From: a virus
IMG/VR virus record: IMGVR_UViG_3300025120_000230
Location: 1 to 34,973 of that record
Length of the DNA: 34,973 nt
Strand: one strand, 5' to 3'
Shown: piece by piece, positions 12,894 through 34,839 of the stretch
Layout: each line of letters starts with the position of its first letter
How positions within the stretch are numbered: the first letter of the stretch is position 1
Translations under genes and position numbers: made by a program
Notes under the pieces: model-generated
The model's input: the letters and a program-made list of their open reading frames with translations, nothing else
What the model was told of the DNA's origin: nothing
Database searches by the model: none

Positions 12894-13574
12894 TTAATCT
12901 TTTTCGTCTTTTGCAGAATAGTTTTTATCTACATAGTTAAAAAATTTCTTTTTCTTTTCATCATCTAATTCATCTGGTGAACTAATACCAAATTTTTTCA
13001 TGGCTGCTTGAAAGAATTCTTCATACTCTCCCTCACGAACCATACCATTAAATTCTTCCTTTACTTCTTTCTCTTCGACATCTGGTTCACTTATTTCATA
13101 ATAACGACCAAGAATGTGTCCCATATCTTCGTATAAACCACTCATTCTTTCTTGTAAAGCTTGTGCCTCCGAAGCAACTTTTTTAAATTGTCCTGACAAA
13201 CCAGTTAATTCTTTCATATTACGATTAACCGTAATCTTATCAAACCAATCTTCGGTTTCTTGAAGTGTGTGCTGTTTTGCTGTTTCAGCTAACTTAGACA
13301 TACGAGATGCTAATTCTTTTAAATTTCCTTCACGATAAATTTCTTTACCATAGGAATTAAAATTACCTACTTCATGAACAAACTCCTTAACATTAATTTT
13401 AGGTTTTTGTTCACCATACATATCCTCAACGATATTAGTTAGTTTTGTAGAAGTATTGTTTCCCTTTGGATGTTGTGTTCTGAACCCCATGTCTATGTTT
13501 GAGAACGCGTTACCCGAAACTACACCACCCATTGTGGTTATATCTTCGTTTAATAAATCTTTTAATTTAGCCAT
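12894..13574 (-). CDS. Putative internal head protein with capsid-targeting-like N-terminus (226 aa)
   Basis: The start is the ATG at 13574, preceded by TTAGGAGACATATA; an upstream TTG in frame lies before the ribosome site and is not used. MAKLKDLLNE followed by Asp matches the peptide shared by proteins at 13603, 15905, 21424 and 22447, with a hydrophobic-x-Glu ending like a gp21 site. After a Gly/Asn-rich linker the protein is mostly charged helix (KELASRMSKLAETAKQHTL; FKKVASEAQALQERMSGLYED) and ends in a Lys/Asp-rich stretch. No enzyme motif. The helical, charged nature would suit a core or internal protein. Confidence 0.75.
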   Translation of the reverse strand: MAKLKDLLNEDITTMGGVVSGNAFSNIDMGFRTQHPKGNNTSTKLTNIVEDMYGEQKPKINVKEFVHEVGNFNSYGKEIYREGNLKELASRMSKLAETAKQHTLQETEDWFDKITVNRNMKELTGLSGQFKKVASEAQALQERMSGLYEDMGHILGRYYEISEPDVEEKEVKEEFNGMVREGEYEEFFQAAMKKFGISSPDELDDEKKKKFFNYVDKNYSAKDEKD

Positions 13575-13593
13575 TATATGTCTCCTAATCAAA

Positions 13594-13601
13594 TATAAAT
13601 A
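13594..13601 (-). promoter_or_regulatory. Candidate promoter element ATATTTATA before the 226-aa internal protein
   Basis: The minus strand reads AGATATTTATATTTGATTAGGAGA: the ATATTTATA core lies directly before the ribosome site, 20 nt from the ATG at 13574. The gap to the upstream gene is otherwise minimal. Confidence 0.3.
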
Positions 13602-13602
13602 T

Positions 13603-14295
13603 CTATTTTCTTAATTTTCCGTCTTTTGAATATCTTCTAAATCCATCACGAACTTTTCTCCACAACATCTTCATAAAAGGTCTTTCACCTTCATGTGTTC
13701 TATTCCACTCACCAGTTTGAATTCCTCGTGTGATGTCCATGGCATCATACTTACCACTTTTAACACCATCCATCATAATCTTTATTACTTGCTGTGAAGC
13801 CTTACCTAAATGTTTTGACATCTTTCTAATGTCATTATCTAAATGAATTTTAGCTTCTTTCGAACTAAATGCTGGTGCATTTACTTCACCAAATCTTTTT
13901 ACCCTTTTCTTTCTCTTATCCTTTAGTCCACCCAATACTTCGTCATCGTCATCCTCATCATCCCAATTGATAGCCCTTGAAGTTGATTTTTTAAATGCTA
14001 ATGGTGTTTGATATCCTGGCACATTAAATGATGTTGAAGCTTCATCTTGAAATTTATCATCTAACCCATCTTTACCATCTAAGTAATTGTATACAGATTG
14101 TAAATAATCCATAGACTTGGTTAGTTTGGATTGAACCCAAGCTGGAAACTGAACCTCACCATCACCACTCTTATCAACATTTTGAATGATTTTATAAATC
14201 ATCATTGCATATTTTTGACTTCTCTCAAGTTGAGATTTAGCCATTGAACCTTCGTGGTCTTTTTTCTCAATAAGTAAATTTTTTAGTTTTACCAT
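13603..14295 (-). CDS. Putative internal head protein with HEGSMAK and NVPGYQTPLAF modules (230 aa)
   Basis: MVKLKNLLIE at the N-terminus matches the shared targeting-like peptide. It is followed directly by KKDHEGSMAKSQLERSQKYA and a helical region with EVQFPAWVQSKLTKSMDYL, a module I recall from several marine T4-like phages. Residues 91-101, NVPGYQTPLAF, form a short motif echoed in the protein at 22877-23350 (NASYKTPHSFAG). An acidic DDEDDDDE patch follows, and the C-terminal 100 residues are basic. ATG at 14295 follows GGAGTTGTAGAAA and overlaps the upstream stop by 7 nt. Function unknown; a packaged protein is inferred. Confidence 0.75.
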   Translation of the reverse strand: MVKLKNLLIEKKDHEGSMAKSQLERSQKYAMMIYKIIQNVDKSGDGEVQFPAWVQSKLTKSMDYLQSVYNYLDGKDGLDDKFQDEASTSFNVPGYQTPLAFKKSTSRAINWDDEDDDDEVLGGLKDKRKKRVKRFGEVNAPAFSSKEAKIHLDNDIRKMSKHLGKASQQVIKIMMDGVKSGKYDAMDITRGIQTGEWNRTHEGERPFMKMLWRKVRDGFRRYSKDGKLRK

Positions 14296-15617
14296 TTTCT
14301 ACAACTCCAATAACGAGCCTTATGTCTCGGTCCGGGTGAATCACAATTATGTCTTGCTCTAAAATTAGCTCTAGCTTTAGGATTAGATTTTCTAATTCTC
14401 ATAGTTCCACCCTTAGCGTCTCCACCTTGTCCAAAGTTTACCTTTACGACATTACCTTTTGGATTCTTAACATATACTTTAAATTTCTTTGAGTCTCCCT
14501 GCATCGGTTTTCCAAGTTTAACCTTACGACCTTGATACTCAGCTTCTACCAATCCAGTCATTGTGTATCCCCAAGAACCATCTTCCATCCACAAATCATA
14601 AGATTCTTCTACAGATTCTTTTTTCTTCGTCTTTTTTACACAATTAGGATACATCTTACCAAACATCTTCTTCATACCTTTTTTCTCGTATCCTTTCCAA
14701 CAGGCTTCCCATAACTTATCACCCATGTTGTTTTCATTTACGGATTCATTGGCCTGTTGAAGTGCATCTCTTACTTTACTATGTAATGACATTCCTTTAA
14801 ACATTCTCTCAATCTTTTTAACAGCTCCGGTCATATTACCACCCATTGATTGAGCTATCTTAACTGCTTTATCGACTTTACTTTTTGGAAACAGAGAATC
14901 AAGAAAATCCCCTTTTTTCTCATTTACGGATTCTTTAATCTTTTGAAGTATCTTCGGATCTTCATCACCAAACATACTAATCAATGTATCTTGAATCTCA
15001 CCTCGTGAGTATCTCATCTGTTTTAATTGTCGTTTAGAATTATCTATCGCACCAAAAATAGGATTGTATCCCTTTTGTTTTAAAAGTTTTTTGACTTGTG
15101 GTCTCATCCTTGTGAGTTCATTTACATCATCATCGTTTAATGATTTTACACTTATACCAGGATAACCTTCTTTCTTTTTCTTCTTTTTACCCTTTTCTTC
15201 ATATCCACTAGCAAATGCTGCTCGTCTTTGAGCGTCACTTGAGAATCCTTCATTCGTAGATTCATATTTAGGTAATACCTTTGGCACTTTAAATCCAACA
15301 TCCTTTAATTTATTTGCTACTGCGGTAGCATCTCTTGTGGAATATTTAAATCTTTTCACAAAATAGTTGACTAAATCCTTACCATATAAAGTTTTACCTC
15401 TGTTTTTTTCATACACACCTTCTTTCTTTGATTTATTACCCCAATTCTTAGCACCTACCTTACGACACTTAACAAGTGCTCCACTTGCGTATGCTGAAGG
15501 CCATACATCGTAACGAGACTTGACTTTGTGGTAACAAGCATCTTTTTCACCTGCGGCTTCATCGAACTGAGCTTCTGTAAGAACTTTTCCAACTACTTCT
15601 TCTAATTTTAAACTCAT
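14289..15617 (-). CDS. Putative internal polyprotein of small Cys/Lys-rich modules (442 aa)
   Basis: Start chosen at the ATG 15617 (MSLK), 6 nt after AGGAG. MSLKLEEVVGKVLTE ends in a gp21-like site before Ala16. Next comes DACYHKVKSRYDVWPSAYAS with a second Cys at 51, a module I recall from cyanophages and giant viruses. Further modules are separated by ESTNE-G, ESVNE, ESVNE and ESVEE linkers; one is a helical block shared with the 17764 protein (positions 14736-14879). Another contains KLWEACWKGYEKKGMKKMFG with a following Cys, and the C-terminus RARHNCDSPGPRHKARYWSC is again familiar from marine phages. The basic, multi-module, linker-separated build suggests a precursor cut by gp21. Confidence 0.78.
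   Translation of the reverse strand: MSLKLEEVVGKVLTEAQFDEAAGEKDACYHKVKSRYDVWPSAYASGALVKCRKVGAKNWGNKSKKEGVYEKNRGKTLYGKDLVNYFVKRFKYSTRDATAVANKLKDVGFKVPKVLPKYESTNEGFSSDAQRRAAFASGYEEKGKKKKKKEGYPGISVKSLNDDDVNELTRMRPQVKKLLKQKGYNPIFGAIDNSKRQLKQMRYSRGEIQDTLISMFGDEDPKILQKIKESVNEKKGDFLDSLFPKSKVDKAVKIAQSMGGNMTGAVKKIERMFKGMSLHSKVRDALQQANESVNENNMGDKLWEACWKGYEKKGMKKMFGKMYPNCVKKTKKKESVEESYDLWMEDGSWGYTMTGLVEAEYQGRKVKLGKPMQGDSKKFKVYVKNPKGNVVKVNFGQGGDAKGGTMRIRKSNPKARANFRARHNCDSPGPRHKARYWSCRKW
14736..14879 (-). repeat. Helical module, copy 1 (NMTGAVKKIE block ending in ESVNE)
   Basis: This in-frame block encodes VDKAVKIAQSMGGNMTGAVK and a following basic helix ending QQANESVNE. The same block, with QAEKIAKSMSGNMTGAVKGI and YNESVNE, is encoded at 18361-18513 in a different gene. 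The two copies are about half identical over roughly 48 residues, clearly homologous, and both end at a linker. Confidence 0.8.
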
Positions 15618-15626
15618 CACCAACTC

Positions 15627-15905
15627 CTATTTCTTTTTTCTTCCAGCACAATGTGCTTTTTGACTAAATCCTTTTGGGTTATTACAATTAATACTCTTTT
15701 TATACTTTTGACTCCAATCTTCTCTCACATTATAAATATCAAGACAACCACAATTTTGTTTTTCTACAACAATAATTTCATTAGCCTTTATTGCCTTTTC
15801 TTGATTTCTAGCTGACTTTTCTGTATCGTGTGTTCCCAATCGTTTTCCACCTTTTTTGGGATACAAAACATACTTACTACCAATCTTTTTGATTACCTCT
15901 AACAC
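15627..15905 (-). CDS. Small basic cysteine-containing protein (92 aa)
   Basis: The start is a GTG at 15905 that overlaps the upstream stop (TAGTG); no clear Shine-Dalgarno is present, so translation is probably by coupling. The N-terminal 45 residues (IKKIGSKYVLYPKKGGKRLG, then DTEKSARNQEKAIKA) form a small beta-alpha module frequent in phage and giant-virus proteins. The C-terminal half has CGC, a lone Cys and a final NPKGFSQKAHCAGRKKK, so four cysteines could bind zinc. It sits between two linker-containing polyproteins and resembles one of their modules encoded as a separate gene. Confidence 0.7.
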   Translation of the reverse strand: MLEVIKKIGSKYVLYPKKGGKRLGTHDTEKSARNQEKAIKANEIIVVEKQNCGCLDIYNVREDWSQKYKKSINCNNPKGFSQKAHCAGRKKK

Positions 15906-17764
15906 TACTTTTTTGGTTTAGTAGAAACATATATTGGTTTCTTACCACCACCTTTTAATGATGATGTTCCACCTCTACCTTTTTTATTCTGTGCTGACCT
16001 CTTTCTACGAGTAGCACTGGCTTTTTGTTTTTTACTCATGTTCGAGGCTTTAGATTTAGGAACACATTTAGCGTATCCTCTTTTCTTTCCACTTGAACCA
16101 CATGGTGGATGTCCCCCACCTTTTTTCTTTTTACCGATGTTTACCCATTTATCACTAAACCATTTTCTTAAATTTTCGTTTGATGGATTACCACAATGAA
16201 TACAGATATTTTCTTTTATAGTCTCAACGACTGATTCTAATCCCAACATATCGGCTGCGACTACAAAGTTTGCAGTATCACCTTTTGATTTATCTAATGG
16301 TATCAATCTCACTCTTTTAAATGTTTTCTTCAACATCATTGATAATTTTTTTGCTTCCATCTTATCATCGATAAAATAACTTAAACTACCTTTACCTGTA
16401 TGCATACTAACAACTGATTTTATACCCATTGACTTTGCCAACTTGGACATAATATCTGACATCTTATCAGATATACCTTCTTTCATAGATTCTTTTTTCT
16501 TTTTTGCCAAAGCCTTCTTTACATCTTTTATATCTTGTTTTAACATTTTTAAATGTTTTGGGTTCTTAACCTGCTTTATCAAACTATTTAAATCTATCAA
16601 ATACATAGCTAATTCATTTCTTGTGAATCCGTGTCCATATGCTTCTCTATAAACTATTCTACCATCTTTTGCTTCAATACCAATCTTATGGTTTGGATAT
16701 CTTTTCTTTATATCCTCATACTCTGCTGGGATTTCTTTTAAATTTTTTACCGATACTTGTTTCGTTATTTTATTATTTTTGGTTATGATAATAGTCCAAG
16801 GTCCAGATTTAGGACCCCTACGAACACTCTTCATAATTTTAGAAAAATTACCTTCTTTTACGGATTCTACAGGTTCATATCCTCTTTTTTGTTTGTTTTT
16901 TCTATCTTGATATCCACCTTCAACATCGTAATCACTATCATCAAAATCATAAGTTGCGTGTTCTGCTCCTTTACCTGTTAAATGAGCTCCACTATGATAC
17001 TTATGGTGTTTGAAAAAATCATCACTCACTCCACCATCGGCTTGCCTTTTAATTTTTTTATCTGAATGCCTTTTAACACTCTTTAACTTTAATGGTAATG
17101 AACCAGCTTCCAAGAGAACTTTTAATATGTGCTCTCTCAAACCTTCTTTTTTAGGATCATATTGACCTAACATCTTATAGATATACATCTTATCAAGGTC
17201 TTTACCTTGAATTAAATTTTCTCCACCTTTCTGTAATTGTTTATATCCACTCCTACTACCAGCACTTTGTGAATTAGGTTCAGGAGTTGCAGGAATTCCT
17301 CCACTCTCAGTTCCTTCTGGTGGTGTTGTAGGTCTAACTAATACATTTTCTGCCGATGTTACAAAATTTGCAGACTCTCTCGGAATGGTGTAGTTTGGTG
17401 ATTTACCAAATGCTCTTCTCCCATAGACTCTTTGATTGGGTGCAAGAGGTGGAGTATCATCTCTCAACTCATGTGGATCTATAACTTCATTACTTTTTAC
17501 ATATTCAGGTGTAATTTTGGTTTTTTTCATAGTACCATTTTTTTCCATATCCATCTTTTCTCTTTGTGTTCCATCTCCACCATAAATTGAATCTGCTGCT
17601 GGTGCAACTAATTGTTTCATTCCTCTTGGCATACCAGCTGGTGTTATTAACCTTCTCTCACCATACTTTGTAAACAGACCATCAGGCCATGCATCACCTG
17701 TATTCAGTCCATAACCGACCGTGGTACCCGAACCTTCTTTCAATAAATTTTTGAGTTTTTTCAC
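15905..17764 (-). CDS. Putative internal polyprotein with ESVKE/ESMKE/ETIKE linkers (619 aa)
   Basis: GTG start at 17764 in a TAGTG overlap, with GAGAAAA upstream. MKKLKNLLKE-GSGTT is the shared targeting peptide ending in a gp21-like site. Landmarks: a Gly/Pro-rich first region (to about residue 215), VLLE-AGS, ESVKE-GNFSK, ESMKE-GISDK and ETIKE-N. The blocks between them are small compact units, for example PWTIIITKNNKITKQVSVKN and SVVSMHTGKGSLSYFIDDK. The last block has CIHC, PPCG and KKRGYAKCVPKSKASNMSKK, a basic Cys-containing tail I recall from cyanophages and giant viruses. No enzyme signature. A precursor of several small packaged proteins is the best explanation. Confidence 0.78.
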   Translation of the reverse strand: MKKLKNLLKEGSGTTVGYGLNTGDAWPDGLFTKYGERRLITPAGMPRGMKQLVAPAADSIYGGDGTQREKMDMEKNGTMKKTKITPEYVKSNEVIDPHELRDDTPPLAPNQRVYGRRAFGKSPNYTIPRESANFVTSAENVLVRPTTPPEGTESGGIPATPEPNSQSAGSRSGYKQLQKGGENLIQGKDLDKMYIYKMLGQYDPKKEGLREHILKVLLEAGSLPLKLKSVKRHSDKKIKRQADGGVSDDFFKHHKYHSGAHLTGKGAEHATYDFDDSDYDVEGGYQDRKNKQKRGYEPVESVKEGNFSKIMKSVRRGPKSGPWTIIITKNNKITKQVSVKNLKEIPAEYEDIKKRYPNHKIGIEAKDGRIVYREAYGHGFTRNELAMYLIDLNSLIKQVKNPKHLKMLKQDIKDVKKALAKKKKESMKEGISDKMSDIMSKLAKSMGIKSVVSMHTGKGSLSYFIDDKMEAKKLSMMLKKTFKRVRLIPLDKSKGDTANFVVAADMLGLESVVETIKENICIHCGNPSNENLRKWFSDKWVNIGKKKKGGGHPPCGSSGKKRGYAKCVPKSKASNMSKKQKASATRRKRSAQNKKGRGGTSSLKGGGKKPIYVSTKPKK

Positions 17765-19824
17765 TATTTTCTCGGTCTGAATGTGGTTAGATTTCCTGTA
17801 TACTTTTCAATCATATCGTGTAGTTGTTCTACACCTACACCTTTAACTTTCTTTATTACTTTCCAATTATACTTAAATACTTTTCCAAATGTCAAATCAT
17901 ATTCATCCCTATTTAAATCAATAATGATGTGTGATACTTTTTTTGGATTCTTACCAATGTGTAAGATTAGTCCATCAGTACCTACTGACTTAGATTTCAC
18001 ACCCATCAACATTTCAAATTTTCTTCCACCCAATTGTCTCATTATCTCTTGTGCTTGAGACTTAGAAACTCCTTCCTTTACGGATTCTATACCAAGATGA
18101 CTTATTTTACCCATACCTGATTTACTTTTAAGTCTAATTGGTTCTTTTGCTTTTTGTTTCAAATCAATACCGAATCTTTTCTTGATATTCTGTAAGGATT
18201 TTGGGTTAATTTTATCGATATTAATTGCTAATAATTTTTTATTTGAAGTGAGTCTAAAATCTTTATTTGGTGCTAAGTCAAGAACATGAGCTAAATATAA
18301 TCCTAAATCCTTAAACTTTTTCTTGTTCAAATCCTTAGAGTATACATGAGCCATATTGACTTCATTTACGGATTCATTATATTTTCTAAGTGCTACCCTT
18401 ACTCGCTTATGGCGTGATAACCCTCTTCTAATTTTTTCAATCCCTTTAACAGCTCCTGTCATATTACCACTCATTGATTTAGCTATCTTTTCTGCCTGTT
18501 TAATTTGTTTGAGTAGACTTTCGTTTACGGATTCTTTAAATGTTTTCTTGAACTCTTGTGATATCTTATTCAATGATTTCATCAACTTAGGTTCTTTTTT
18601 TACTTTCTTATCATATATAGTAATCTTACCATTAGGAGCAATATGAGCTATATCTTTATAGTCACCGGCCTTCTCTTGGTTTCTGTCATATACGGTCATA
18701 CCATTACCTTTGAATCCTGCTCCGGTATCAAATTTACCAAATATACCTTCATTTACAGATTCATTTGCCCACAAGGAACTCATTATTTCAGCTCGTTTTG
18801 CAGGTGGTGCACCCTTGTATAATTTTTTTACCACATCATAAAATCTAAGTTTATCGTTGGCATCTTTTTCATTATCACCTTTTTTGATAAAGTATTGCTT
18901 TATCTTTTCTTTATTTTCTATCACAACTTCATCTAAATCACCTTTCTTAAAATCTTTTAGGTTCTTTACCACTTGTGAACTACCAACTTTACCTAATTTA
19001 AAACCACCAGCTCTAATTCCTAACTCAACAAATGTAGCTTTTTTGCTAATGTATACTGGTAGAACAGCTGAACCTCTTTTTACTTTACCTTGACCAGGCA
19101 TATCCACTTTGTTATCGGATTTAACCGTATAGAATCCACCCCAAGCACCATTATGAAAACTTTGTTTCATAGGGTTAAATTTTATCACTTTTATTTTGGA
19201 TTGTTTAAAAACTTTATCCATATATTTTTTAAATTCACTTTTAGGATCGAAATACATTTCTTCATTTATGGATTCACCAGTGAATTGTTTTTTGTAAAAA
19301 TCTATATCTGATTGAGATTGTTTTTTAGGTTCTTGTTTTTTACTGTTTTTAAATTTTTTAAATAATTTTGAAAATACACTTTTTGCCCTATTATGAGATG
19401 GTTGAGTTTTATCTTTGAGGGCCGTTACGGCTGATATTTTGTTACCACTCTTACCTTGAACTTTAACATTCTTCATAGCTCGTATAGCACCTTGAGTTGC
19501 TGCTATGGCTACAGGATTTTCATTTAGGGTTACCTCTTTCTTTAAACGACTTTTTTCAGCTCTTCCTCTGTTTTTAGATTGTGATTCAAATCCCACTATT
19601 TTTCCCCCTTTGTGTGAAGCGTCTTTACCATCACCATTACCATAAGTTCCCTTCTTACGATTATATTGATTTAATTCTGCTCTGTATTTTTTAGACTTGG
19701 TAGATGATTGAAATTTTTTATATTCGGCCTTGTAATCTCGTTTCGTTTCTTCACCAAGTGAAATAATTTCTTGCTTTACCAAGTTTGAAAGATATTCTTT
19801 CATACGACTTCTATAATCGTTCAT
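17764..19824 (-). CDS. Putative internal polyprotein with seven or more ESVNE-type linkers (686 aa)
   Basis: The chosen start is the ATG at 19824 (MNDYRSRMKEYL), 8 nt after GAGG; an in-frame ATG at 19845 lacks a ribosome site. First module: DYKAEYKKFQSSTKSKKYRA and GTYGNGDGKDASHKGGKIVG, recalled from marine phages. It is followed by VTLNE-NPVAIAATQGAIRAM, a Lys-rich segment, GESINE-EM, NESVNE-G, KESVNE-S, NESVNE-V and IESVKE-G. The block between the third and fourth ESVNE-type linkers is the helical module shared with the 14289 gene. Blocks are 40-150 residues, basic, without catalytic motifs. Overlaps the next gene by TAGTG. The regular linkers suggest proteolytic maturation. Confidence 0.78.
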   Translation of the reverse strand: MNDYRSRMKEYLSNLVKQEIISLGEETKRDYKAEYKKFQSSTKSKKYRAELNQYNRKKGTYGNGDGKDASHKGGKIVGFESQSKNRGRAEKSRLKKEVTLNENPVAIAATQGAIRAMKNVKVQGKSGNKISAVTALKDKTQPSHNRAKSVFSKLFKKFKNSKKQEPKKQSQSDIDFYKKQFTGESINEEMYFDPKSEFKKYMDKVFKQSKIKVIKFNPMKQSFHNGAWGGFYTVKSDNKVDMPGQGKVKRGSAVLPVYISKKATFVELGIRAGGFKLGKVGSSQVVKNLKDFKKGDLDEVVIENKEKIKQYFIKKGDNEKDANDKLRFYDVVKKLYKGAPPAKRAEIMSSLWANESVNEGIFGKFDTGAGFKGNGMTVYDRNQEKAGDYKDIAHIAPNGKITIYDKKVKKEPKLMKSLNKISQEFKKTFKESVNESLLKQIKQAEKIAKSMSGNMTGAVKGIEKIRRGLSRHKRVRVALRKYNESVNEVNMAHVYSKDLNKKKFKDLGLYLAHVLDLAPNKDFRLTSNKKLLAINIDKINPKSLQNIKKRFGIDLKQKAKEPIRLKSKSGMGKISHLGIESVKEGVSKSQAQEIMRQLGGRKFEMLMGVKSKSVGTDGLILHIGKNPKKVSHIIIDLNRDEYDLTFGKVFKYNWKVIKKVKGVGVEQLHDMIEKYTGNLTTFRPRK
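18361..18513 (-). repeat. Helical module, copy 2 (NMTGAVKGIE block ending in ESVNE)
   Basis: Second copy of the module described at 14736-14879, here in the largest polyprotein gene. The middle stretch (SGNMTGAVKGIEKI) is the best conserved part; the DNA is also partly conserved on the plus strand (TTAACAGCTCCnGTCATATTACCA-type block, shown here as a pattern). It suggests module shuffling between neighbouring genes. Confidence 0.8.
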
Positions 19825-19898
19825 AGGTTCTTCCTCATGTTTCATCCAAACTGGATGTTCTTCACCACTATATGGTCAAGTATGGTGGCCAGGCTTCA

Positions 19899-20867: not shown

Positions 20868-20877
20868 CTTTTCTCTC

Positions 20878-21150: not shown

Positions 21151-21151
21151 T

Positions 21152-21424
21152 TTATTCTCCACTATGTTGGATTTCTGTTTCCAAAAATCTTTTTAGAACA
21201 CTTCTATTGTAAAGTGAACCTAATATATTTCTTACATTACCTTTTTTGGCATCTTTATAAACCTCATAGGCAATTCTTTCAATACTTTTCTGTAGTTGTT
21301 TTCTCGTCATCACACCATACCCTTGAATCTGAATTTTAGCATCTAATGGTGTTTCCACTCCTTTTTTGGGTAGAGTTAATTTTGCCTCACGGACATTTCT
21401 TAATAATGACTTTAAACTAATCAT
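21152..21424 (-). CDS. Small putative internal protein, MISLKSLLRN start (90 aa)
   Basis: ATG at 21424 in a TAATG overlap. MISLKSLLRNVREAKL is a variant of the shared N-terminal peptide that lacks the Glu at position 10. Then follows KIQIQGYGVMTRKQLQKSIE and a basic helix (AYEVYKDAKKGNVRNILGSL). Proteins with an IxGYGxxxxxxL motif after such a peptide recur in my memory of marine T4-like phages. Function unknown. Confidence 0.65.
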   Translation of the reverse strand: MISLKSLLRNVREAKLTLPKKGVETPLDAKIQIQGYGVMTRKQLQKSIERIAYEVYKDAKKGNVRNILGSLYNRSVLKRFLETEIQHSGE

Positions 21425-21828
21425 TAACTTCTATCTTTACTACGATATTTCTTTAAAATTTTATCCCATACTTTATAAGAATTCTCCATGTCCTTTACTG
21501 CAGAATTGAGTTTCTTTCCTACTTTTTCCATATGTGAGTGAAATTCTTTTACAACTTTATCATAAAGACTTCTATCATTCCAATCATACATATCGGATTC
21601 TCTTGGGCCGTAATCATCAAATCTTTCCAATTGGTCAAATATTTTTCCCCAATCTCTATCATAATAGGACACATCATCTGGTGTTTTAAACTGAGGTATC
21701 GAAACTTCTTTGATAGGTTCTTTAGAATCTTGATGTTGTTTCATCACACTATCTAATGTGGGTAATGACTCACCAAAACCTCGTTCAAGATATTTACTCT
21801 CTTTTAATAAATCTTTTAATTTTTTCAT
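21424..21828 (-). CDS. Putative internal protein, MKKLKDLLKE start (134 aa)
   Basis: ATG at 21828 overlaps the stop of the protease gene (TAATG), with AGAGAGGGATA upstream. MKKLKDLLKE is the cleanest copy of the shared peptide. The middle region is rich in Asp, Tyr and Trp (VSYYDRDWGKIFDQLERFDD) and the end is a basic helix (EKVGKKLNSAVKDMENSYKV). It lies directly after the protease, where T4-like phages keep head-core genes. No catalytic motif. Confidence 0.7.
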   Translation of the reverse strand: MKKLKDLLKESKYLERGFGESLPTLDSVMKQHQDSKEPIKEVSIPQFKTPDDVSYYDRDWGKIFDQLERFDDYGPRESDMYDWNDRSLYDKVVKEFHSHMEKVGKKLNSAVKDMENSYKVWDKILKKYRSKDRS

Positions 21829-22445
21829 TATCCCTCTCTAATTATATTGTTAATAATTGATTCCACCTTACAGTATTTTCCACAGGTTCTACCTTCTGGA
21901 ATAACTTCATTCCCAACACTCTCTTTCAATGGATATAAGAAAGCTCCGTGTGTAGATGGATTAGATACGAAGTCAAATGCTATCAATTCAAAGTCTTGTC
22001 CAACTTGTTGTCCATCACCCTCTTGCATAGGTTCAACTGAACCCATACCACGAGAACTAATACCTAACTTGATACCAGCTTTAAATAATTCTTTTAATAT
22101 ATTACCACTTGGTGTTCCAAGAACTTCAACCGTTCCAACCAAGTTTTGACCTTCCCAATGCATTTCAGTAACATTATGGGAAACATTCTGTAAATTAACA
22201 ACAGAACTTTCAGGATGGTCTAACTCACCCATAGCACGTTTTTGTTTTACAAAACTAGCGGTGTATTTATCAGATTCTCTTTCTAATATTTCTCTCGGAT
22301 ACACCCTACCATTTTGATTCTTTGCATTAGCCCTTTGTAATACACCATGAACTATCAACTTACCACCATTCTGTGAAATTGATTCGTTAATCTGTTCGGA
22401 TGTTATTTCAAACGGTATATAATCTACTATTAATTTTCTGTTCAT
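21828..22445 (-). CDS. 21: Prohead core protease gp21
   Basis: This is the serine protease that digests the T4-type core and trims gp23 and internal proteins. The 205-aa sequence has the family order: VHGVLQRANAKNQNGRVYPR at 32-51, MGELDHPESS with the catalytic His77, LGTPSGNILKELFKAGIKLG, then ISSRGMGSVE with the Ser130/Ser131 pair holding the nucleophile, and FDFVSNPSTHGAF. Length is close to T4 gp21 (212 aa). ATG at 22445 follows GGTGAAGTAAA. Its position between portal and scaffold matches T4 order. All proposed hydrophobic-x-Glu sites in this window would be its substrates. Confidence 0.93.
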   Translation of the reverse strand: MNRKLIVDYIPFEITSEQINESISQNGGKLIVHGVLQRANAKNQNGRVYPREILERESDKYTASFVKQKRAMGELDHPESSVVNLQNVSHNVTEMHWEGQNLVGTVEVLGTPSGNILKELFKAGIKLGISSRGMGSVEPMQEGDGQQVGQDFELIAFDFVSNPSTHGAFLYPLKESVGNEVIPEGRTCGKYCKVESIINNIIREG

Positions 22446-22446
22446 T

Positions 22447-22683
22447 TTACTTCACCTTCTTTAACATTGCGATGCTGTCTTTCATAAATTTTGTTACCCC
22501 ACTTTTATACGAAGATTTTAATTGTTGAACCAATGCTTTATTCTTTTCATCTTTACCATAGGTTTCAGCTAATTTTATCATAGCAGTTCTGAACCGAGTT
22601 TCTATTTTTTGCAACCTCTGAGTTCTCTTTGCTGCCTGTGCTCTATCTTTTATATCTTCACTCAGAAGGTCTTTCAGTTTCAT
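22447..22683 (-). CDS. Small putative internal/core protein, MKLKDLLSE start (78 aa)
   Basis: Start is the ATG at 22683 (GAGGAAAAGTTG upstream; ATGA overlap with the upstream stop). An in-frame TTG one codon earlier is less likely. MKLKDLLSE-D matches the shared peptide. The remainder is a charged helix with many Lys/Arg and no Cys. Size and position just before gp21 recall T4 gp67, a prohead core protein, but I see no sequence proof. Confidence 0.65.
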   Translation of the reverse strand: MKLKDLLSEDIKDRAQAAKRTQRLQKIETRFRTAMIKLAETYGKDEKNKALVQQLKSSYKSGVTKFMKDSIAMLKKVK

Positions 22684-27669: not shown

Positions 27670-27670
27670 A

Positions 27671-27976: not shown

Positions 27977-27999
27977 TTTATTTCTCCTTTATATAATAA

Positions 28000-28281: not shown

Positions 28282-28562
28282 TATAATATCTCCATCATTC
28301 TTTTATAGGTTGATTCATTCTTTTCAGTTTTATGTGGTTCGTCAAAATCACTTTCCTTTGGTTTTTCATATTTACCATATCCATCTTTATCACGAGTTAT
28401 CTTTTCTTCCACTTTTGCAATTCTAAAGTTTACAACTTTTCTTCCGTTAATAGTTGGCATTCCATAATCATCTTTACCAATCTCTTTTACTTTAATTTTT
28501 TTATTTTTAAACTTACCACCTAATATGGTATCTCCAACATTTATATCAATAGTGATTGCCAT
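28281..28562 (-). CDS. Small basic beta protein (93 aa)
   Basis: The ATG at 28562 follows GGAGAGATTA and overlaps the previous stop (TAATG); an in-frame TTG four codons upstream overlaps the ribosome site and is not chosen. The N-terminal part, ITIDINVGDTILGGKFKNKK followed by IKVKEIGKDDYGMPTINGRK, reads as a small beta barrel of the KOW/SH3 type. The end is charged (KYEKPKESDFDEPHKTEKNE). In marine phages I recall similar G(D/E)xIxxGKFKNK proteins near the ligase-like gene. Function unknown. Confidence 0.65.
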   Translation of the reverse strand: MAITIDINVGDTILGGKFKNKKIKVKEIGKDDYGMPTINGRKVVNFRIAKVEEKITRDKDGYGKYEKPKESDFDEPHKTEKNESTYKRMMEIL

Positions 28563-28795
28563 TAATCTCTCCAACTTATCATAAGGTTTTGACCATCGAG
28601 TTTTTCAGTTACGTTATCCTCACGATTTAACTGACCGCCCAATCCCATTTCAATTATATTTTTTAAATCTTTGAAGGTTAGGTCTTTATCGTCAAAGGGA
28701 TGTGCCATGTGTCCATAGGCACCACCTTCGTTTAAGATTTCTCTTTTAATTTCTTCATCCCACCATTCTTTTGTCAAAGGCTTATACTTTTTCAT
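28562..28795 (-). CDS. N-terminal fragment of a ligase-like (DUF6267-type) protein (77 aa)
   Basis: The protein reads MKKYKPLTKEWWDEEIKREI, LNE-GG, GHMAHPFDDKDLTFKDLKNI and ends TEKLDGQNLMISWRD. KLDGQN matches motif I (KxDG/KxHGxN) of covalent nucleotidyltransferases such as RNA ligases, its Lys being the expected nucleophile. In intact relatives as I remember them, SWxx is followed by GKLIAARNKGHLK; here the gene stops, and that continuation is encoded 2 kb upstream inside 29705-32503. The leader ends in an ILNE-G site like those of the other internal proteins. No ribosome site; the ATG follows CTATTTATTA by 2 nt. Confidence 0.75.
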   Translation of the reverse strand: MKKYKPLTKEWWDEEIKREILNEGGAYGHMAHPFDDKDLTFKDLKNIIEMGLGGQLNREDNVTEKLDGQNLMISWRD

Positions 28796-28797
28796 AA

Positions 28798-28807
28798 TAA
28801 TAAATAG
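28798..28807 (-). promoter_or_regulatory. AT-rich element 2 nt upstream of the split-ligase N-fragment
   Basis: The minus strand reads CTATTTATTA-TT-ATG. The same ten bases with the same spacing precede the zinc-finger gene at 3826. Both genes lack Shine-Dalgarno sites. Confidence 0.35.
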
Positions 28808-28814
28808 TCATCCA

Positions 28815-29411
28815 TTAAATATTAATACTTTCTAATTCTGCTTCTGTTTCTACTTTCATCTTTTCATATTCTTCTATTGCCTCTGTTGCCATAGTTTTAA
28901 TCTTTTTAGTATCGACATTCCACTTCTCTTTCTCTATCTCAACACTATTCACACCAACTTGTTGTAAAAAGTTAGGTTGTTTAGTAGCTTCCTCTTCCCA
29001 ATTAGAAACACTTTTAATTTGTTCATCAATCCAAGATAATTTATTTTTTAATACCTTTGTCTTTTCCCATTCTTCATACTTACCTTCGATACGAAGCTTG
29101 TTTTCAAAATCAACTTGACAATCAAAGCAATGATTGAATAGACGATACATTTTATCATCTAATCTTTTTTTCATTATCTTTTTACAATTAGGACAAAACC
29201 AAGGCATTCTAGCTTCTCGTAGAGCATCAGAACGTTCATTTCTTTCTTCTCGTTCCTGTTTAATTTGTTCTTGTCTAGCCTGCTTCTCTTCTAAATCTTC
29301 CATTGGAAGAAAAATTCTTTTATCTGGCGTTTCTCCACGTGCTATCTGACGAATAGTTTTTACTTGTCTAGCTCTTTCTTGTGGATTATTACTTAACAAT
29401 GAATCACCCAT
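28815..29411 (-). CDS. Zinc-ribbon protein (198 aa)
   Basis: ATG at 29411, with GGAGTAATTAGGTT upstream. N-terminal third is charged and helical (LEEKQARQEQIKQEREERNE). Residues 70-108 hold a four-Cys ribbon: PWFCPNCKKIMKKRLDDKMY then NHCFDCQVDFENKL. The rest is helical with acidic tail (EAIEEYEKMKVETEAELESI). PWFCPxCKKxMKKRLD proteins recur in marine T4-like phages in my memory, function unassigned. It could bind DNA or act as a packaging accessory because it is three genes before terminase. It lies between the two halves of the ligase-like domain. Confidence 0.68.
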   Translation of the reverse strand: MGDSLLSNNPQERARQVKTIRQIARGETPDKRIFLPMEDLEEKQARQEQIKQEREERNERSDALREARMPWFCPNCKKIMKKRLDDKMYRLFNHCFDCQVDFENKLRIEGKYEEWEKTKVLKNKLSWIDEQIKSVSNWEEEATKQPNFLQQVGVNSVEIEKEKWNVDTKKIKTMATEAIEEYEKMKVETEAELESINI

Positions 29412-29414
29412 AAC

Positions 29415-29705
29415 CTAATTACTCCTTTTTAATGAATCTAACTTCCACTTAAACCTCAACTCTTCAAGTTCTTGGTCTCTTCTTAATGTGGATATTTCCA
29501 TTTTGATTAATTTTATCTTCTGTTCTTCTACCATTTGTTGTTCTAATCTACTAACTCTATCTTCCATCTTATACCAACCACCACCAAAACCACCAATAGC
29601 TGTAACAATACTTATCACAAACTTAATTAAGTTGTTTGCTTTTAACTTTTTTACCTGTTTATCACCAGCCCATTCTAATAAATCATCCTCCCAATCATCA
29701 CTCAT
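29415..29705 (-). CDS. Small membrane-anchored coiled-coil protein (96 aa)
   Basis: An acidic N-terminus (MSDDWEDDLLEWAGD) is followed by one hydrophobic segment at about 26-44 (LIKFVISIVTAIGGFGGGWY) and then a charged coiled coil (EDRVSRLEQQMVEEQKIKLI through LRRDQELEELRFKW). ATG 29705 in a TAATG overlap. The layout of one membrane helix plus coiled coil resembles small phage membrane proteins such as holins or spanin-like proteins, but there is no lysis gene next to it. Function not assigned. Confidence 0.65.
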   Translation of the reverse strand: MSDDWEDDLLEWAGDKQVKKLKANNLIKFVISIVTAIGGFGGGWYKMEDRVSRLEQQMVEEQKIKLIKMEISTLRRDQELEELRFKWKLDSLKRSN

Positions 29706-32503
29706 TAGAATGCTAATAATCCTGTTATTTGGTTGATAGGTGCAAATGCTCCTGTAAACTTATATGTGTTACCTTTATACTTAAATACAATTCCTTCACT
29801 TGGAACTATTGCCTTTAGTCCACCTATAGCATTTAATCTATCCATCTGTATTTTTAATGTGTTTAGTTTCTTTAAATCACCACCACTTCTTACACTTGAT
29901 ATTGATTTATCTAATCTTTTCTTTATACCTTGAACTGCTTTATCAGGACTTGCAGCTAACCAACCACTAACATTTTTCATTATTTCAGAACCAACATCAA
30001 AAAATAAAACCTCAAATGGTTTCATATTCTGTTTCATTTGTTTTTGATGGTTGTTCTTATCATATCCCAATACCCATTCTTTAAACTTTGGATATTTTTC
30101 ATAATCCTTTCTAATCATTGGAACGGTATATTTTTTATTAAAGAAGGCCCACCTCATAGTCAAATTCTTTAATTGAGTTGGTTTCAACTTAACTTTAAAC
30201 TTTTTAGCATTTTGTAAAATAAATCTTTCCCACCATTTTTGATGATAAAGTGAAAGTGAATCGTTGTCTTTTAAATTAAACTCTTTTTGTAGTTTTTGTA
30301 ATCTCGTAAAGTATTTCTTTTTCATTTTACCAAAATCTTGATGTTTTGGAACTGTTAGGAAGTTAGGTTTTCCTATCTTATAATGTCTTTGAATGTTTTG
30401 GTTAACTTGTTTAATCATTCCAGCTAACATTCTTCCACTATCCGAAACCTGTCCTACAACATTACCATCATCATCATACTCAAGTGCTCCGTGAAATACT
30501 ATTTCAGCTTTATCATAATCGATAACATTTGCTGACTTTGGCCACATTACTTCAAGATTCATAAATGAACTGCCATTCATAAAAACTTTATCTCTTTGTT
30601 TATCAGATAGTTTACCTATAGCACTTTCCATATCTTTCATTGCAAATATAAAAGCATCTGCTATATCACCACGACCTTCAAACTTACTTTTCATACCATT
30701 TACATCGAGTGCAGTTTTTCCCTTATTCTTTAAATGTCCTTTGTTTCTTGCAGCTATTAATTTACCCTCATTTAACATTTCTTTACCCTCATGTAGTCTA
30801 TCATCTTTATCTTTATTTATATCAGATAGTTTTTTTGATTTAGTAATATCTTCTTCTTCTACTTTCCAAGTATCTTTAATATCTATACCATCTTTTGGAT
30901 TCATCATGAACTTTATCAATTCCCAACCTAAAGCATCATTTATTTCTTTTTGTCGTTTAGCATATTTTTTAAATGGTTCATCTACACTTTGCCAATTTTT
31001 ACCATTTTGATTTACAGTTCTACCATATGTTACACTTGGAACTCTTTGATATTCGAATGTATAATCAAATGTAGGATCTACTGCACCATCTCCCAATATA
31101 AAATTTACTATTTCATATCCATGTTTTTCTGCCCATCTTGGTGAAATTCTTTTGTAATCTTCAAAATCTTCGAAGAAATCGTATAACCCTTCATCTGCTA
31201 AATTTGGAGCTGAAACATTAGAACTTTCTAATATTACTTTATTTATATCAGTTTGTTTTAAAAAAGTTTCATAATATTCATATAACTTTCTGAACTTATT
31301 AGTCATCATGGTGAATACACCCTTATCAAAGTAACCAAATGCATCTTTAAATAACTTTGGTCTTTCCTCATCTTTAATTTTAGGTGAACCCAATAAATCT
31401 CTCATTACCGTTCCACTAACTTCCTTACCACCTACTCTGATAGAAACATGAGGTGCAGTTAAGATATATCCGTGTTCTTCATACCCTTTTAAATTATTTT
31501 TATTTTTCTTAAATTCCTGATAATAAGACGGACTTCCATCTTTTTTCTTTCCACCTGCCAATCTACCCGCATCTTTAGCTCCAAATATATATATCACAGC
31601 GGTAGTCTCAGAATCGTATTTTTTTAGCACATTTTTTGCCACGTAGGGAATCTTCTCCTCTATGATACGATTCTTAGGAACACCCATCTTAACCATATGT
31701 CTAACTTTTTCTTTAAAGTTCATAGGATGTCTTGGTGGTTTTTTTATATTTGTAGTGGTGATGTATGCATCATCTACTTTTGATTTTAACCATTTATATG
31801 TTTTAAAATGATGTGGCCCGAATGGTTGATATCTACCACCATAGATTCCTACGATTTTTTTTATTTTTTTGACTTCAGTTATTTCCTTAATACTTTCTGT
31901 GGGTTGCTTTATCTCACCATCATAGTTTATTACCTTAACAGGTATTTTATTTCCATGACCAGTTTGTGCCATTAATCTCGTGTTTCCAGCTAACAACCAC
32001 ATCTCACCATTTTTATCTCTAACAGCAATTGGTGATTCTTGTGCCTCACCACTTTTTATATTTTTAGTTATGTAATCCCAACTCTTATCATATTCGATTG
32101 CCATTTTTTTAGCATGTTTCATTGGATTTTTAGAATCCAATACATCACCGGCATCACTATTATTTAACTTTCTTAAATCATCATCAGATAGTGTTTCTTC
32201 AGGTGCATCAAGTATTTTTTGTGTTAAATCATTTTCGTCTTTTGCTAGATTAGGCATTGCTTGAGATGCCACATCGTTTTCAAAATATTCACCAGTTTCA
32301 TCTTGAGCCTGTTCTCTTGAATATGGTTTTGTCTTTACGACATTTTCACCTTTTTCTTTTTTACCTGATGGATTAGATAACTCTATTGACTTGGGACTAT
32401 TAGGATAGTCTTTTAGATATTGTTTTTGAGCATCACCACTCATATCTGTCCACCAATCTTCAGGTAATAAGTCTCTTACGATTGATTCTACTAATTTTTT
32501 CAT
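29705..32503 (-). CDS. Multidomain protein: ParB-like, NMNAT-like, ligase-like C-terminal fragment (932 aa)
   Basis: ATG 32503 (ATGA overlap) follows GGTGGACGAAG. The N-terminus MKKLVESIVRDLLPED resembles a longer targeting peptide. A ParB-like domain has PIAVRDKNGEMWLLAGNTRL (158-177). After ESIKE (203-207) comes a nucleotidyltransferase of the NMN adenylyltransferase/cytidylyltransferase fold: GIYGGRYQPFGPHHFKTYKW with GPHH as the HxGH-type site, and SGTVMR at 363-368. A LADE438-G site precedes an unassigned region, and MLNE579-G580 precedes KLIAARNKGHLKNKGK, FMNLEVMWP (motif III-like) and EGIVFKYKG (motif IV-like). That last part (29705-30766) lacks motif I, which is encoded at 28562-28795. 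Confidence 0.85.
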   Translation of the reverse strand: MKKLVESIVRDLLPEDWWTDMSGDAQKQYLKDYPNSPKSIELSNPSGKKEKGENVVKTKPYSREQAQDETGEYFENDVASQAMPNLAKDENDLTQKILDAPEETLSDDDLRKLNNSDAGDVLDSKNPMKHAKKMAIEYDKSWDYITKNIKSGEAQESPIAVRDKNGEMWLLAGNTRLMAQTGHGNKIPVKVINYDGEIKQPTESIKEITEVKKIKKIVGIYGGRYQPFGPHHFKTYKWLKSKVDDAYITTTNIKKPPRHPMNFKEKVRHMVKMGVPKNRIIEEKIPYVAKNVLKKYDSETTAVIYIFGAKDAGRLAGGKKKDGSPSYYQEFKKNKNNLKGYEEHGYILTAPHVSIRVGGKEVSGTVMRDLLGSPKIKDEERPKLFKDAFGYFDKGVFTMMTNKFRKLYEYYETFLKQTDINKVILESSNVSAPNLADEGLYDFFEDFEDYKRISPRWAEKHGYEIVNFILGDGAVDPTFDYTFEYQRVPSVTYGRTVNQNGKNWQSVDEPFKKYAKRQKEINDALGWELIKFMMNPKDGIDIKDTWKVEEEDITKSKKLSDINKDKDDRLHEGKEMLNEGKLIAARNKGHLKNKGKTALDVNGMKSKFEGRGDIADAFIFAMKDMESAIGKLSDKQRDKVFMNGSSFMNLEVMWPKSANVIDYDKAEIVFHGALEYDDDGNVVGQVSDSGRMLAGMIKQVNQNIQRHYKIGKPNFLTVPKHQDFGKMKKKYFTRLQKLQKEFNLKDNDSLSLYHQKWWERFILQNAKKFKVKLKPTQLKNLTMRWAFFNKKYTVPMIRKDYEKYPKFKEWVLGYDKNNHQKQMKQNMKPFEVLFFDVGSEIMKNVSGWLAASPDKAVQGIKKRLDKSISSVRSGGDLKKLNTLKIQMDRLNAIGGLKAIVPSEGIVFKYKGNTYKFTGAFAPINQITGLLAF

Positions 32504-34839
32504 CTTCGTCCACCCTTATCAAAGGTAGTAAATTTCTTTAACTTGTCGAATGCCCTAAACTGTTTCATTTTATCTTGTTTTGTCCATTTCATTTTGTCAA
32601 AGACTTTCATTCTCATGTGTTGTTTTACTATGTAATAAATATCAAGAACATTACCACCCATTGATTTTATCCATTTGGCATATTTCTTAACCAACTTGGC
32701 TGAAACATTTTCATGTCCGTAGTGTGTCCAAAATCCTTTTTTCGGATGTAGTTTAGCAGTAGAGTCTTTTCCTATATCGTGAAATAGTGCTGCAAGTGCA
32801 AAGTCTATATCACCAGTTTTAAGTGCCCTATTCGTAACGGCTATCGTATGTTTCAACACATTACCTTCAGGATGTGCATCTCTCCTCTGGTCGTAGTTTT
32901 TTAGATTATACACGCGTTTCTTCAAGTCACTTGGTAACGCATTATAAATATCTTTAAACTTCTTTGGTTTTGGACGAACTGCTATTTCTTTTATTTTTTT
33001 CTTTGTATCTGTTTTCAAGAATGGGCCTCTCCTTAATGTTGAAAATCTTACAGGTGTCTCAATACCGAATAATTTCTTTGGTGCTAAAATTCTCAATGTA
33101 ATCATCTTTCTACTATTATCAACCTTCAAGGTTTCAAATTCAATTTCTTTGTATCTCTTACCTTTCATTTTAAGGTTATGACCTGTAATAAACTTTTCTA
33201 CTTTACTACCCTTTACGGCATTTGCCTCATCTGTTTTTTTCTTTTTAACATCAGGATTATAATATCTGTGCTCACCATCCTTTTGTATTGCAGGTACTGG
33301 TGCCTGGTTTCTAATGTAATTAGGATAGTTAGTCATCTCATTCAGATATTTTTCGGTTTCCATTTTTTGTATAGCTTTACCGATATCCTTTCCTTTTAAA
33401 TCTTTTGATACATCACTACCTTTTACCGATAGTTTAAATCTAACTAATTTTTTGAAATCTTTTCCAATGTATTTACCCCATTTAATAATTTGACCTTTAC
33501 TCAATTTAGTCTTTTCTTGAAACTTCTTAATTATAAAAATGTTTTCAGATTTAAAGTTTTGTAAAGAATTTAAAAACTGAATATCAATTATTTCCTGATT
33601 AGGATAAGCCAAACCATTTAATTTCCTTATAGAATTTACATCATTTTTTCGTAAAATCCAAGCTAAAAATAAAATATAATCGTTTTCATTTATGTAAGGA
33701 ATACTTACTTGAAACTTAGGAAGTATCTGTTTGGTAAATCCTAACTCATCACAGAGTTGTAAATACTTCTTGGGTGATTTTGCTTTCATTATGGATTTGA
33801 CAAACTCATCTCTGATTCTTTCTCCACTCACACCCTTTAGACTTGGGTTCTGTCTAAGTGCGTTTTCGGTTTCCTTACCTAACTTACCACCGAGTGCACC
33901 TTGAAATCTTAGTGCTCTCATCTTTCTTAACGGATCCTCATCAAATCTTTCGACAGCGTTTCCAACGGTTCGAATCTTCTTCTTTTTTAAATCTGCTATA
34001 CCACCAACCAAGTCTACAATCTCCCCCCTATCCATATCGTAGAAGAGTGCATTTATGGTCAAATCTCGTCTTTTTACATCACCCTCTATGTCGGTATAGT
34101 CAACTGAACTTGGGCGTCTCCCTTTACCAATATCCTTTCTGAATGTTGCTATTTCATGTCCACCAACTATCACGACACCGAATTGTTTTCCAACTTCTAC
34201 GGTTTTCAATCCACCCTTTTTTGCTATTTGTAATACCTCATCGGGTTTAGCATCGGTGGCTAAATCAAAATCTTTTGGACTCTTTCCTAATATTGCATCC
34301 CTAACTGCACCACCCACAACAAAAAGTTTTTTCTTGTTTTTCTTAAAAAGTTTGTGTATTTTCTTTATGTCATTGGGGATTCTAAGCTTAAATTTTGAAT
34401 ACTCGTTTAACTCACCCTCTTCTACCTTTTCGTATCCACTCCCATACGGAACAGAAGTATTACCTTTCTTCTTCATCTTATTTATCATCTTACGACTTGG
34501 TGAAGGTAAACCAGTCATTTCATTTTTCTCTTTGGTTTTCTTTTTCATCTTATTGATGTAAGCCCTATAGACAGCTGCTTCCGAACTCTTACCCATTTCT
34601 TTAGCTCTCTGTTCCATAGCTACAGCAGCTTGTATCTTATGTGCGTGTTTTTTACCACTTCCGTTTATCTTACTAACCGATGCCTTTGCATCCTTAACCG
34701 TAGCAAACTTTAATCCTTTGATTGTTCCCTTTGGATTCTCATCTGTGTATAAATCTGAATGAGACGATGAGTTCCTATGTTGACCTTTCTTACGAGGTTT
34801 TCTTGGAGCTTCGTTCAATAAGTTAATAAGTTTAATCAT
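32500..34839 (-). CDS. tRNA nucleotidyltransferase/poly(A) polymerase-like protein with HD domain and targeting-like N-terminus (779 aa)
   Basis: MIKLINLLNE-A is the shared targeting-type peptide. Residues 20-105 (KGLKFATVKDAKASVSKING, HAHKIQAAVAMEQRAKEMGK) form a basic module frequent in marine phages. EEGELNE146 then precedes a class II nucleotidyltransferase head: GGAVRD 176-181, DFDLATD with Asp190/Asp192 as metal ligands, RRDLTINA 257-264, and DPLRKMRALRF 302-312. A helical region follows, an unassigned stretch from about 480 to 640, and a C-terminal HD domain (LKHTIAVTNRAL, FHDIGKD with His687-Asp688, HYGHENVSA). Bacterial CCA enzymes may carry HD phosphohydrolase domains, but here the HD is far away. 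Likely acts on RNA 3' ends. ATG in a TAATG overlap. Confidence 0.85.
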   Translation of the reverse strand: MIKLINLLNEAPRKPRKKGQHRNSSSHSDLYTDENPKGTIKGLKFATVKDAKASVSKINGSGKKHAHKIQAAVAMEQRAKEMGKSSEAAVYRAYINKMKKKTKEKNEMTGLPSPSRKMINKMKKKGNTSVPYGSGYEKVEEGELNEYSKFKLRIPNDIKKIHKLFKKNKKKLFVVGGAVRDAILGKSPKDFDLATDAKPDEVLQIAKKGGLKTVEVGKQFGVVIVGGHEIATFRKDIGKGRRPSSVDYTDIEGDVKRRDLTINALFYDMDRGEIVDLVGGIADLKKKKIRTVGNAVERFDEDPLRKMRALRFQGALGGKLGKETENALRQNPSLKGVSGERIRDEFVKSIMKAKSPKKYLQLCDELGFTKQILPKFQVSIPYINENDYILFLAWILRKNDVNSIRKLNGLAYPNQEIIDIQFLNSLQNFKSENIFIIKKFQEKTKLSKGQIIKWGKYIGKDFKKLVRFKLSVKGSDVSKDLKGKDIGKAIQKMETEKYLNEMTNYPNYIRNQAPVPAIQKDGEHRYYNPDVKKKKTDEANAVKGSKVEKFITGHNLKMKGKRYKEIEFETLKVDNSRKMITLRILAPKKLFGIETPVRFSTLRRGPFLKTDTKKKIKEIAVRPKPKKFKDIYNALPSDLKKRVYNLKNYDQRRDAHPEGNVLKHTIAVTNRALKTGDIDFALAALFHDIGKDSTAKLHPKKGFWTHYGHENVSAKLVKKYAKWIKSMGGNVLDIYYIVKQHMRMKVFDKMKWTKQDKMKQFRAFDKLKKFTTFDKGGRR

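Follow-up and report, generated by a model that had tools for sequence, protein, structure and literature searches.

Why should so many otherwise unrelated proteins, enzymes among them, begin with nearly the same ten residues? The question is posed by a fragment of an uncultured virus record (IMG/VR IMGVR_UViG_3300025120_000230), 34,973 bases long and referred to in full as the window. It has 33% G+C, carries 38 genes and includes a minus-strand, T4-like head region with terminase, portal, gp21-type protease, scaffold and major capsid protein. The first-pass annotation had listed seven such N-terminal leaders and three looser forms and had read them as a capsid-targeting peptide. The minus strand encodes all seven and the three looser forms at the 5' coordinates given, far above chance, and two more leader-like N-termini, at 19824 (MNDYRSRMKEYLSNLVKQEIISLGE) and 28795 (MKKYKPLTKEWWDEEIKREILNE), had been overlooked. 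Our analysis supports the capsid-targeting reading through the presence of a PF03420 protease, the residues at leader positions 4, 7, 8 and 10, the cut site of the capsid protein and the enzymes found in cyanophage virions. We consider it likely, taken as a whole, that the leaders direct targeting of the T4 kind, that a gp21-type protease cleaves both leaders and polyproteins, and that the products are delivered to the host. Packaging of the leader proteins appears well supported, both by analogy and from mass spectrometry of relatives; docking, cleavage, location in the head, delivery and the roles of the enzymes are what we infer.

In phage T4, residues 4 and 7 of the internal protein IPIII serve targeting and residues 8 and 10 serve processing, gp21 cutting after L/I-x-E; aspartate at position 10 abolishes processing, with targeting kept (PMC9026906). 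Among 155 proteins picked solely by the prefix M.KLK, residue 7 is L or I in 144, residue 8 is L, I, V or M in 151 and residue 10 is E in 135, with a shifted xE in most of the remainder. Residues 3-9 of these 155 leaders are encoded by 135 distinct 21-mers, so the conservation is on the protein and not on the DNA. Sharing of the leader by DNA copying alone was rejected, since there are many synonymous DNA forms; some recent copying is suggested by one short stretch of DNA, 21800-21831, that matches about 14263-14294. The window leader MAKLKDLLNE resembles the propeptide of the T4 vertex protein gp24, MAKINELLRE. At the position aligned with the T4 gp23 cut, [IVL]xE is found in 91 of 93 aligned capsid proteins, and a gp21-family protease gene is also present in five of eight leader-bearing contigs searched. 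The claim that the leaders end in hydrophobic-x-Glu holds in general and fails for the PAP2 phosphatase peptide (4501), which ends without L/I-x-E.

The strict leader pattern ^M.{0,4}[LIVM]K.[LFIM][LIVM].E matches five of the 38 window genes, against a mean of 0.056 and a maximum of 2 in 5000 composition-keeping shuffles of the N-termini. For the window together with its first relatives the figures are 88 of 1325 genes and 1.2 in shuffles. The motif core begins at residues 2-6 in 88 proteins, where 0.3 would be expected from its rate deeper in the proteins. Nor is the motif genome-wide: in a 216-kb relative it occurs in one of 246 called genes, which lies beside a polyprotein in the head region. 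Across the relatives, about 320 related loci in all, the proposed search for the peptide in front of unrelated domains gave 215 short-leader proteins, which fall into 42 families by single linkage once the leader is removed, and the proteins are thus otherwise unrelated, as had been claimed. Among the bodies that could be recognized in the relatives are a NUDIX domain (L012), an AAA_33/zeta-type P-loop kinase (L133), a match to ParB-like nucleases (L127) and, below Pfam cut-offs, a HAD-like phosphatase (L178).

Evidence from virions comes from three cyanophages. Mass spectrometry of purified particles detected a cytidylyltransferase in S-SM1 (PMC3037559), NMNAT in S-SCSM1 (PMC9602691) and a SAM hydrolase, an APH/ChoK-like kinase and a cytidylyltransferase in S-CREM2 (PMC10665884). 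We note that the S-SM1 and S-SCSM1 enzymes begin MKKFSAFLNE and MKSFLQFLKE, respectively, and that those of S-CREM2 begin MKDFDSFLEE (SAM hydrolase), MKRFDAFLTE (kinase) and MKNFSSFLTE (cytidylyltransferase), with MKDLHSFLTE on its gp13. All six annotated genes with a T4-type leader that were found across the three phages encode reported virion proteins: three cytidylyltransferases/NMNATs, the SAM hydrolase, the kinase and one protein of unknown function. A generalized T4 pattern, which the N-terminus of T4 IPIII (presumably MKTYQEFIAE) would fit, was applied in a six-frame scan of 148 kb of S-CREM2 and returned four open reading frames, all four detected by mass spectrometry. In stretches of S-SM1 and S-SCSM1 the same pattern returned one annotated gene each, both detected, plus one 51-residue antisense frame. 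The S-CREM2 paper makes no mention of capsid targeting or internal proteins (PMC10665884), nor does the S-SCSM1 paper mention a targeting sequence (PMC9602691). As a separate observation, gp12 of S-CREM2 (L327:7704-10313), the 'CRISPR-Cas9-like' nuclease reported from its virions, contains RFASFMAEA some 18-26 residues from its start, which may be a leader of greater length.

We envisage the leader, typically M-I-K-L-K-x-L-L-x-E, as a short amphipathic helix that would dock cargo on the prohead core. Once docked, it would be removed after hydrophobic-x-E by the gp21-type protease, which would act in the prohead and probably also severs the cargo polyproteins at their ES[VI][NK]E and LNE sites. 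The freed modules would be retained alongside the DNA inside the head and be injected into the next host, where infection would begin with a ready-made enzyme kit. The predicted cargo includes a CCA-type nucleotidyltransferase that also has an HD domain, an NMNAT/cytidylyltransferase-like protein, a ligase-like enzyme and many small proteins of unknown function, joined in the relatives by a NUDIX protein, a P-loop kinase and a HAD-like phosphatase.

The internal motifs recur in the polyproteins 14289-15617, 15905-17764 and 17764-19824 and in both enzyme proteins. ES[VIM]xE occurs 214 times across the first relatives against 26 in shuffles. Part of this count comes from a conserved position in the neck protein, which is not cargo, and we did not accept the neck-protein ES[VI]xE as a cleavage site. 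Within polyproteins the figures are 190 against 14 for VNE and 72 against 15 for LNE, with a median spacing of 99 residues. Clustering of the modules merged one large family (F0, 167 members) and placed false cuts in portal and neck proteins, so that we rely instead on two other comparisons. Firstly, we took BLASTP alignments of five window polyproteins to relatives and counted those ending within six residues of a site, with rotated sites as the null. Between 35 and 67% of alignments end at sites, against 3-14% in the null (p 0.005-0.04); individual values are 46 against 7% for 15905-17764, 67 against 14% for 17764-19824 and 48 against 3% for the NMNAT-like polyprotein. Secondly, sixteen module families are found directly after both an N-terminal leader and an internal site, with the junction at much the same residue in either setting; in five of the 16 examples the site counted as 'internal' is among the first 50 residues. 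The module of gene 13603-14295, for example, is preceded in relatives either by a leader (MVKLKDLLYE) or by an internal ESISE. In AlphaFold models, six of the seven sites of polyprotein 17764-19824 and all four of the CCA polyprotein coincide with low-confidence linkers or are no more than a few residues away from one; a Foldseek search of a polyprotein model against the PDB gave no match below E = 0.001. From these patterns in the sequences, the internal sites are probably cut by the head protease.

Module order is highly variable among relatives. The nearest annotated isolate to encode a protein of this type, Flavobacterium phage immuto, has one of 841 residues that bears LNE, ESVNE and ESLNE sites. 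The two modules at 18361-18519 and 14733-14918, which lie in different polyproteins, share 74% DNA identity over 145 bp. For polyprotein 14289-15617, there are modules with relatives among the virion proteins detected by mass spectrometry, namely S-SCSM1 gp29 and S-CREM2 gp160. DUF3008 (MPAKSKAQQRFMGM...) forms the N-terminal module of many cargo polyproteins (L055, L305, L317 and others). It is a stand-alone virion protein in S-SCSM1 (gp93, L330:31627-31836), the C-terminus of which, RTFKEFLEYIE, resembles a T4-type leader at the C-terminal end. Residues 29-94 of 17764-19824 have homologues shorter than 100 residues among hypothetical proteins of P-SSP7, P-SSP2 and other podophages (T7-like cyanophages). 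Judged by such homology, cargo modules seem to cross phage families.

The first-pass annotation had named a CCA-type nucleotidyltransferase and an NMNAT-like protein as cargo, and relatives indeed carry leaders directly on these enzyme modules. In the CCA-type polyprotein the enzyme module would span residues 147-501, with the HD module after residue 618. The window sequence at the junction is GELNE146 followed by YSKFKLRIP; relatives start with MIYLSNLIPLNE followed by YSKFRLNIP, that is, with the leader directly before the enzyme, and this module is one of the sixteen families seen in both settings. The NMNAT module in relatives is directly preceded by the leaders MKKLVESIVRDLISE or MDKLTRELIRDLLPE. 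The match of the window protein to PF01467 is weak (E = 0.0055) and is above the cut-off in relatives. We tried this protein as an orthologue of the S-SM1 virion cytidylyltransferase and rejected the assignment, the BLASTP match not being significant; the two have only the broad family in common and belong to different subfamilies.

A ligase had also been proposed as cargo. There is a ligase-like domain with a leader-like N-terminus; the match is weak, with RNA_ligase PF09414 below cut-off and only chance-level matches in a search of solved structures by sequence, and the domain is divided between two genes. The half with the KLDG motif (28562-28795) ends in SWRD, and the other starts (GKLIAARNKG...) right after LNE579 of the NMNAT-like polyprotein. 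The domain is in one piece in 60 relatives, but the window and at least 20 other contigs encode it in two parts. Were the LNE579 site cut, the two halves would have closely meeting ends. Contigs noted for this domain include L119, L129, L133, L139, L147 and others. In another contig, at L168:11680-12873, the same ligase-like half follows an intein C-terminal splicing domain (PF14890, below cut-off), and an interruption is seen in the CCA module of that contig too; the fission of the ligase-like gene may have passed through an intein stage. A wider scheme suggests itself, in which marine T4-like phages practise modular head delivery, the protease freeing shuffled effectors at sites that double as recombination joints and, in some lineages, an enzyme arriving as two separately encoded halves that come together only once cleaved. 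We offer it tentatively and lean slightly against it.

Table 1. Leaders, polyproteins, modules and head genes of the window.
Feature	Coordinates	Strand	Remarks
Major capsid protein gp23	9538-11205	-	E63 of QLIDE (window 11017-11019) aligned with T4 gp23 cut at E65
gp22-like scaffold	11235-12473	-	Own ESVNE at residue 188
Prohead protease, gp21 family (Peptidase_S77)	21828-22445	-	PF03420, E = 2.9e-28
Leader MAKLKDLLNE of gene 12894-13574 (226 residues)	13545-13574	-	Mature family in 47 leader proteins
Leader MVKLKNLLIE of gene 13603-14295	14266-14295	-	
Leader-like MSLKLEEVVGKVLTE of polyprotein 14289-15617	15573-15617	-	Looser form
Leader MKKLKNLLKE (GTG start) of polyprotein 15905-17764	17735-17764	-	
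Leader MKKLKDLLKE of gene 21424-21828	21799-21828	-	Immediately after protease gene
Looser N-terminus MISLKSLLRNVRE	5' end 21424	-	
Leader MKLKDLLSE (nine residues) of gene 22447-22683	22657-22683	-	Position of T4 core genes 67/68
Leader MIKLINLLNE of CCA-type protein	34810-34839	-	
Long leader MKKLVESIVRDLLPE of NMNAT-like protein	32459-32503	-	Looser form
Leader-like MLKLKELLQLE of PAP2 phosphatase (3872-4501; PF01569)	4469-4501	-	Without L/I-x-E
Cargo polyprotein, 442 residues	14289-15617	-	Predicted cuts after residues 15, 233, 295, 338
Cargo polyprotein, 619 residues	15905-17764	-	Predicted cuts after residues 10, 304, 429, 514
Cargo polyprotein, 686 residues	17764-19824	-	Predicted cuts after residues 25, 102, 188, 359, 435, 488, 584
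Module between ESVNE sites	18361-18519	-	Module family F8; paralogue of 14733-14918
Second copy of that module, different polyprotein	14733-14918	-	Module family F8
CCA-type nucleotidyltransferase polyprotein, 779 residues	32500-34839	-	PF01743 (E = 7.6e-31), PF12627, PF01966; predicted cuts after residues 10, 146, 501, 618
NMNAT/cytidylyltransferase-like polyprotein, 932 residues	29705-32503	-	Predicted cuts after residues 15, 207 (or 210), 579
KLDG-motif half of ligase-like domain, separate gene	28562-28795	-	Leader-like ...REILNE

Several observations weigh against T4-type targeting followed by cleavage. The support from virions comes from cyanophages, the leaders of which, MKxFxxFLxE, are like yet not identical to the MxKLKxLLxE of the window. 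The generalized leader pattern was fixed only after the data had been seen, and a looser leader test on a partial S-CREM2 gene list gave a modest enrichment (Fisher p = 0.013). The authors of the cyanophage studies themselves caution that abundant proteins may co-purify with virions (PMC10665884, PMC9602691). The predicted site at residue 435 of polyprotein 17764-19824 lies within a predicted helix. The PAP2 leader ends in LQLE, and in LKLD in three homologues (L007, L009, L011; e.g. MIKLKELLKLD). Finally, the DNA at the ES[VI][NK]E sites varies less over its 15 bases than codon usage would lead one to expect, and the conservation may come partly from recombination, not cleavage.

This last point leads to the alternative that the internal sites are mainly DNA joints for module shuffling, with the protein sequence a by-product. 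The 15-mer GAATCCGTAAATGAA, coding for ESVNE, is used beyond what codon usage predicts, even between unrelated flanks (e.g. window 18520-18522 and 18361-18363); of the 86 sites whose flanks are unrelated, 44 use TCC for serine, a codon that makes up only about 10% of the serine codons of these proteins. The strong variation in module order points the same way. However, LNE/INE sites and the leaders lack that DNA, the leaders have many synonymous forms, and near-matches to the sites keep V, I or L at P3 and E at P1 with variation at P2. Joints are moreover compatible with a cleavage role, and the data suggest that the ES[VI][NK]E sequences may be recombination joints as well as cleavage sites. 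As a full account of the sites, recombination by itself seems unlikely.

We also considered whether the leader might be a docking tag for head or scaffold that is never cut, the E-S-V-N-E stretches being flexible linkers of intact multidomain proteins. Targeting and processing are separable in T4, as the Asp10 substitution demonstrates (PMC9026906), and an N-terminal signal targets DarB of phage P1 (PMC9024508). The PAP2 leaders would suit such a tag: from their LKLD ends and the effect of Asp10 in T4, our guess is that PAP2 may be targeted with its leader kept. For the leaders at large we judge an uncut tag quite improbable, given that E10 is present in 135 of the 155 with a shifted xE in most of the others, that the capsid-protein propeptide has the same hydrophobic-x-E end, that leader and internal site are interchangeable before 16 module families and that half of the split enzyme starts directly after an internal site.

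It is very unlikely that the proteins act in the infected cell, with the peptide serving expression or stability and the cyanophage detections reflecting contamination. The carry-over raised by the cyanophage authors would favour this, but the products of the four S-CREM2 leader genes from the 148 kb scanned, and of the single annotated ones from the stretches of S-SM1 and S-SCSM1, were all detected in virions, the leader genes of the window have protease and scaffold as neighbours in the head region, and it is the protein, not the DNA, that is under selection. A G+C content of 33% favours K, L, I and E, but similarity by chance on that ground is refuted by the composition-keeping shuffles (0.06 against 5 in the window, 1.2 against 88 overall).

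T4-type targeting with cleavage remains our preferred reading, and the genomic setting can be compared with known systems. The window capsid protein shows 50-52% identity to its counterparts in Flavobacterium phage immuto, Microcystis phage Mel-JY01 and an uncultured large phage; for Rhodothermus phage RM378 the value is 35%. In T4 genes 21 and 22 are adjacent, in the order 20-67-68-21-22-23, whereas in the window about 9 kb of cargo genes separate protease (21828-22445) from scaffold (11235-12473). The leaders share with T4 IPI-III and Alt a length of about ten N-terminal residues, the same key positions, the L/I-x-E cut motif, a gp21-family protease, a conserved leader on divergent proteins and a place among head genes. 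Unlike in T4, there are dozens of cargo families, metabolic and RNA/nucleotide enzymes included, and cargo polyproteins with repeated internal sites. The same broad kinds of enzyme, with ten-residue T4-type leaders, are reported from purified virions of cyanophages S-SM1, S-SCSM1 and S-CREM2.

Polyvalent proteins such as P1 DarB/DdrB likewise combine unrelated domains in one polypeptide near late genes; their packaging has been proposed, and so has their division into units by a zincin-like metallopeptidase that they themselves carry (Iyer et al., 2017). The window sites instead fit the head protease, and Pfam scans of the window polyproteins and of the relatives scanned revealed no peptidase domain. 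In phages phiKZ and SPN3US many proteins of the inner head are processed after x-x-E by a relative of gp21; there the consensus is S/A-x-E and propeptides often exceed 100 residues, whereas here it is L/I/V-x-E with leaders of about ten. In the literature examined, neither a short leader across many unrelated families nor modular cargo polyproteins are described for phiKZ/SPN3US, and we found no earlier description, in the open-access literature, of cargo polyproteins with sites like those of the head protease. The tag itself is of the known T4 internal-protein kind; what is new is how large the tagged set of marine far-T4 phages is and which enzymes it contains, together with the link to unexplained enzymes of cyanophage virions and the cargo polyproteins just mentioned.

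The finding offers an explanation of why enzymes such as NMNAT recur in the virions of cyanophages: each one examined bears a targeting peptide of the T4 type. If it is true, a simple sequence rule would predict, from genomes, the set of proteins injected by abundant and mostly uncultured ocean phages. The predicted functions include some seldom sought in virions, namely tRNA end repair, NUDIX hydrolysis and kinases. In that case, the polyprotein form would also give the head protease a further task and allow phages to exchange the effectors that they inject.

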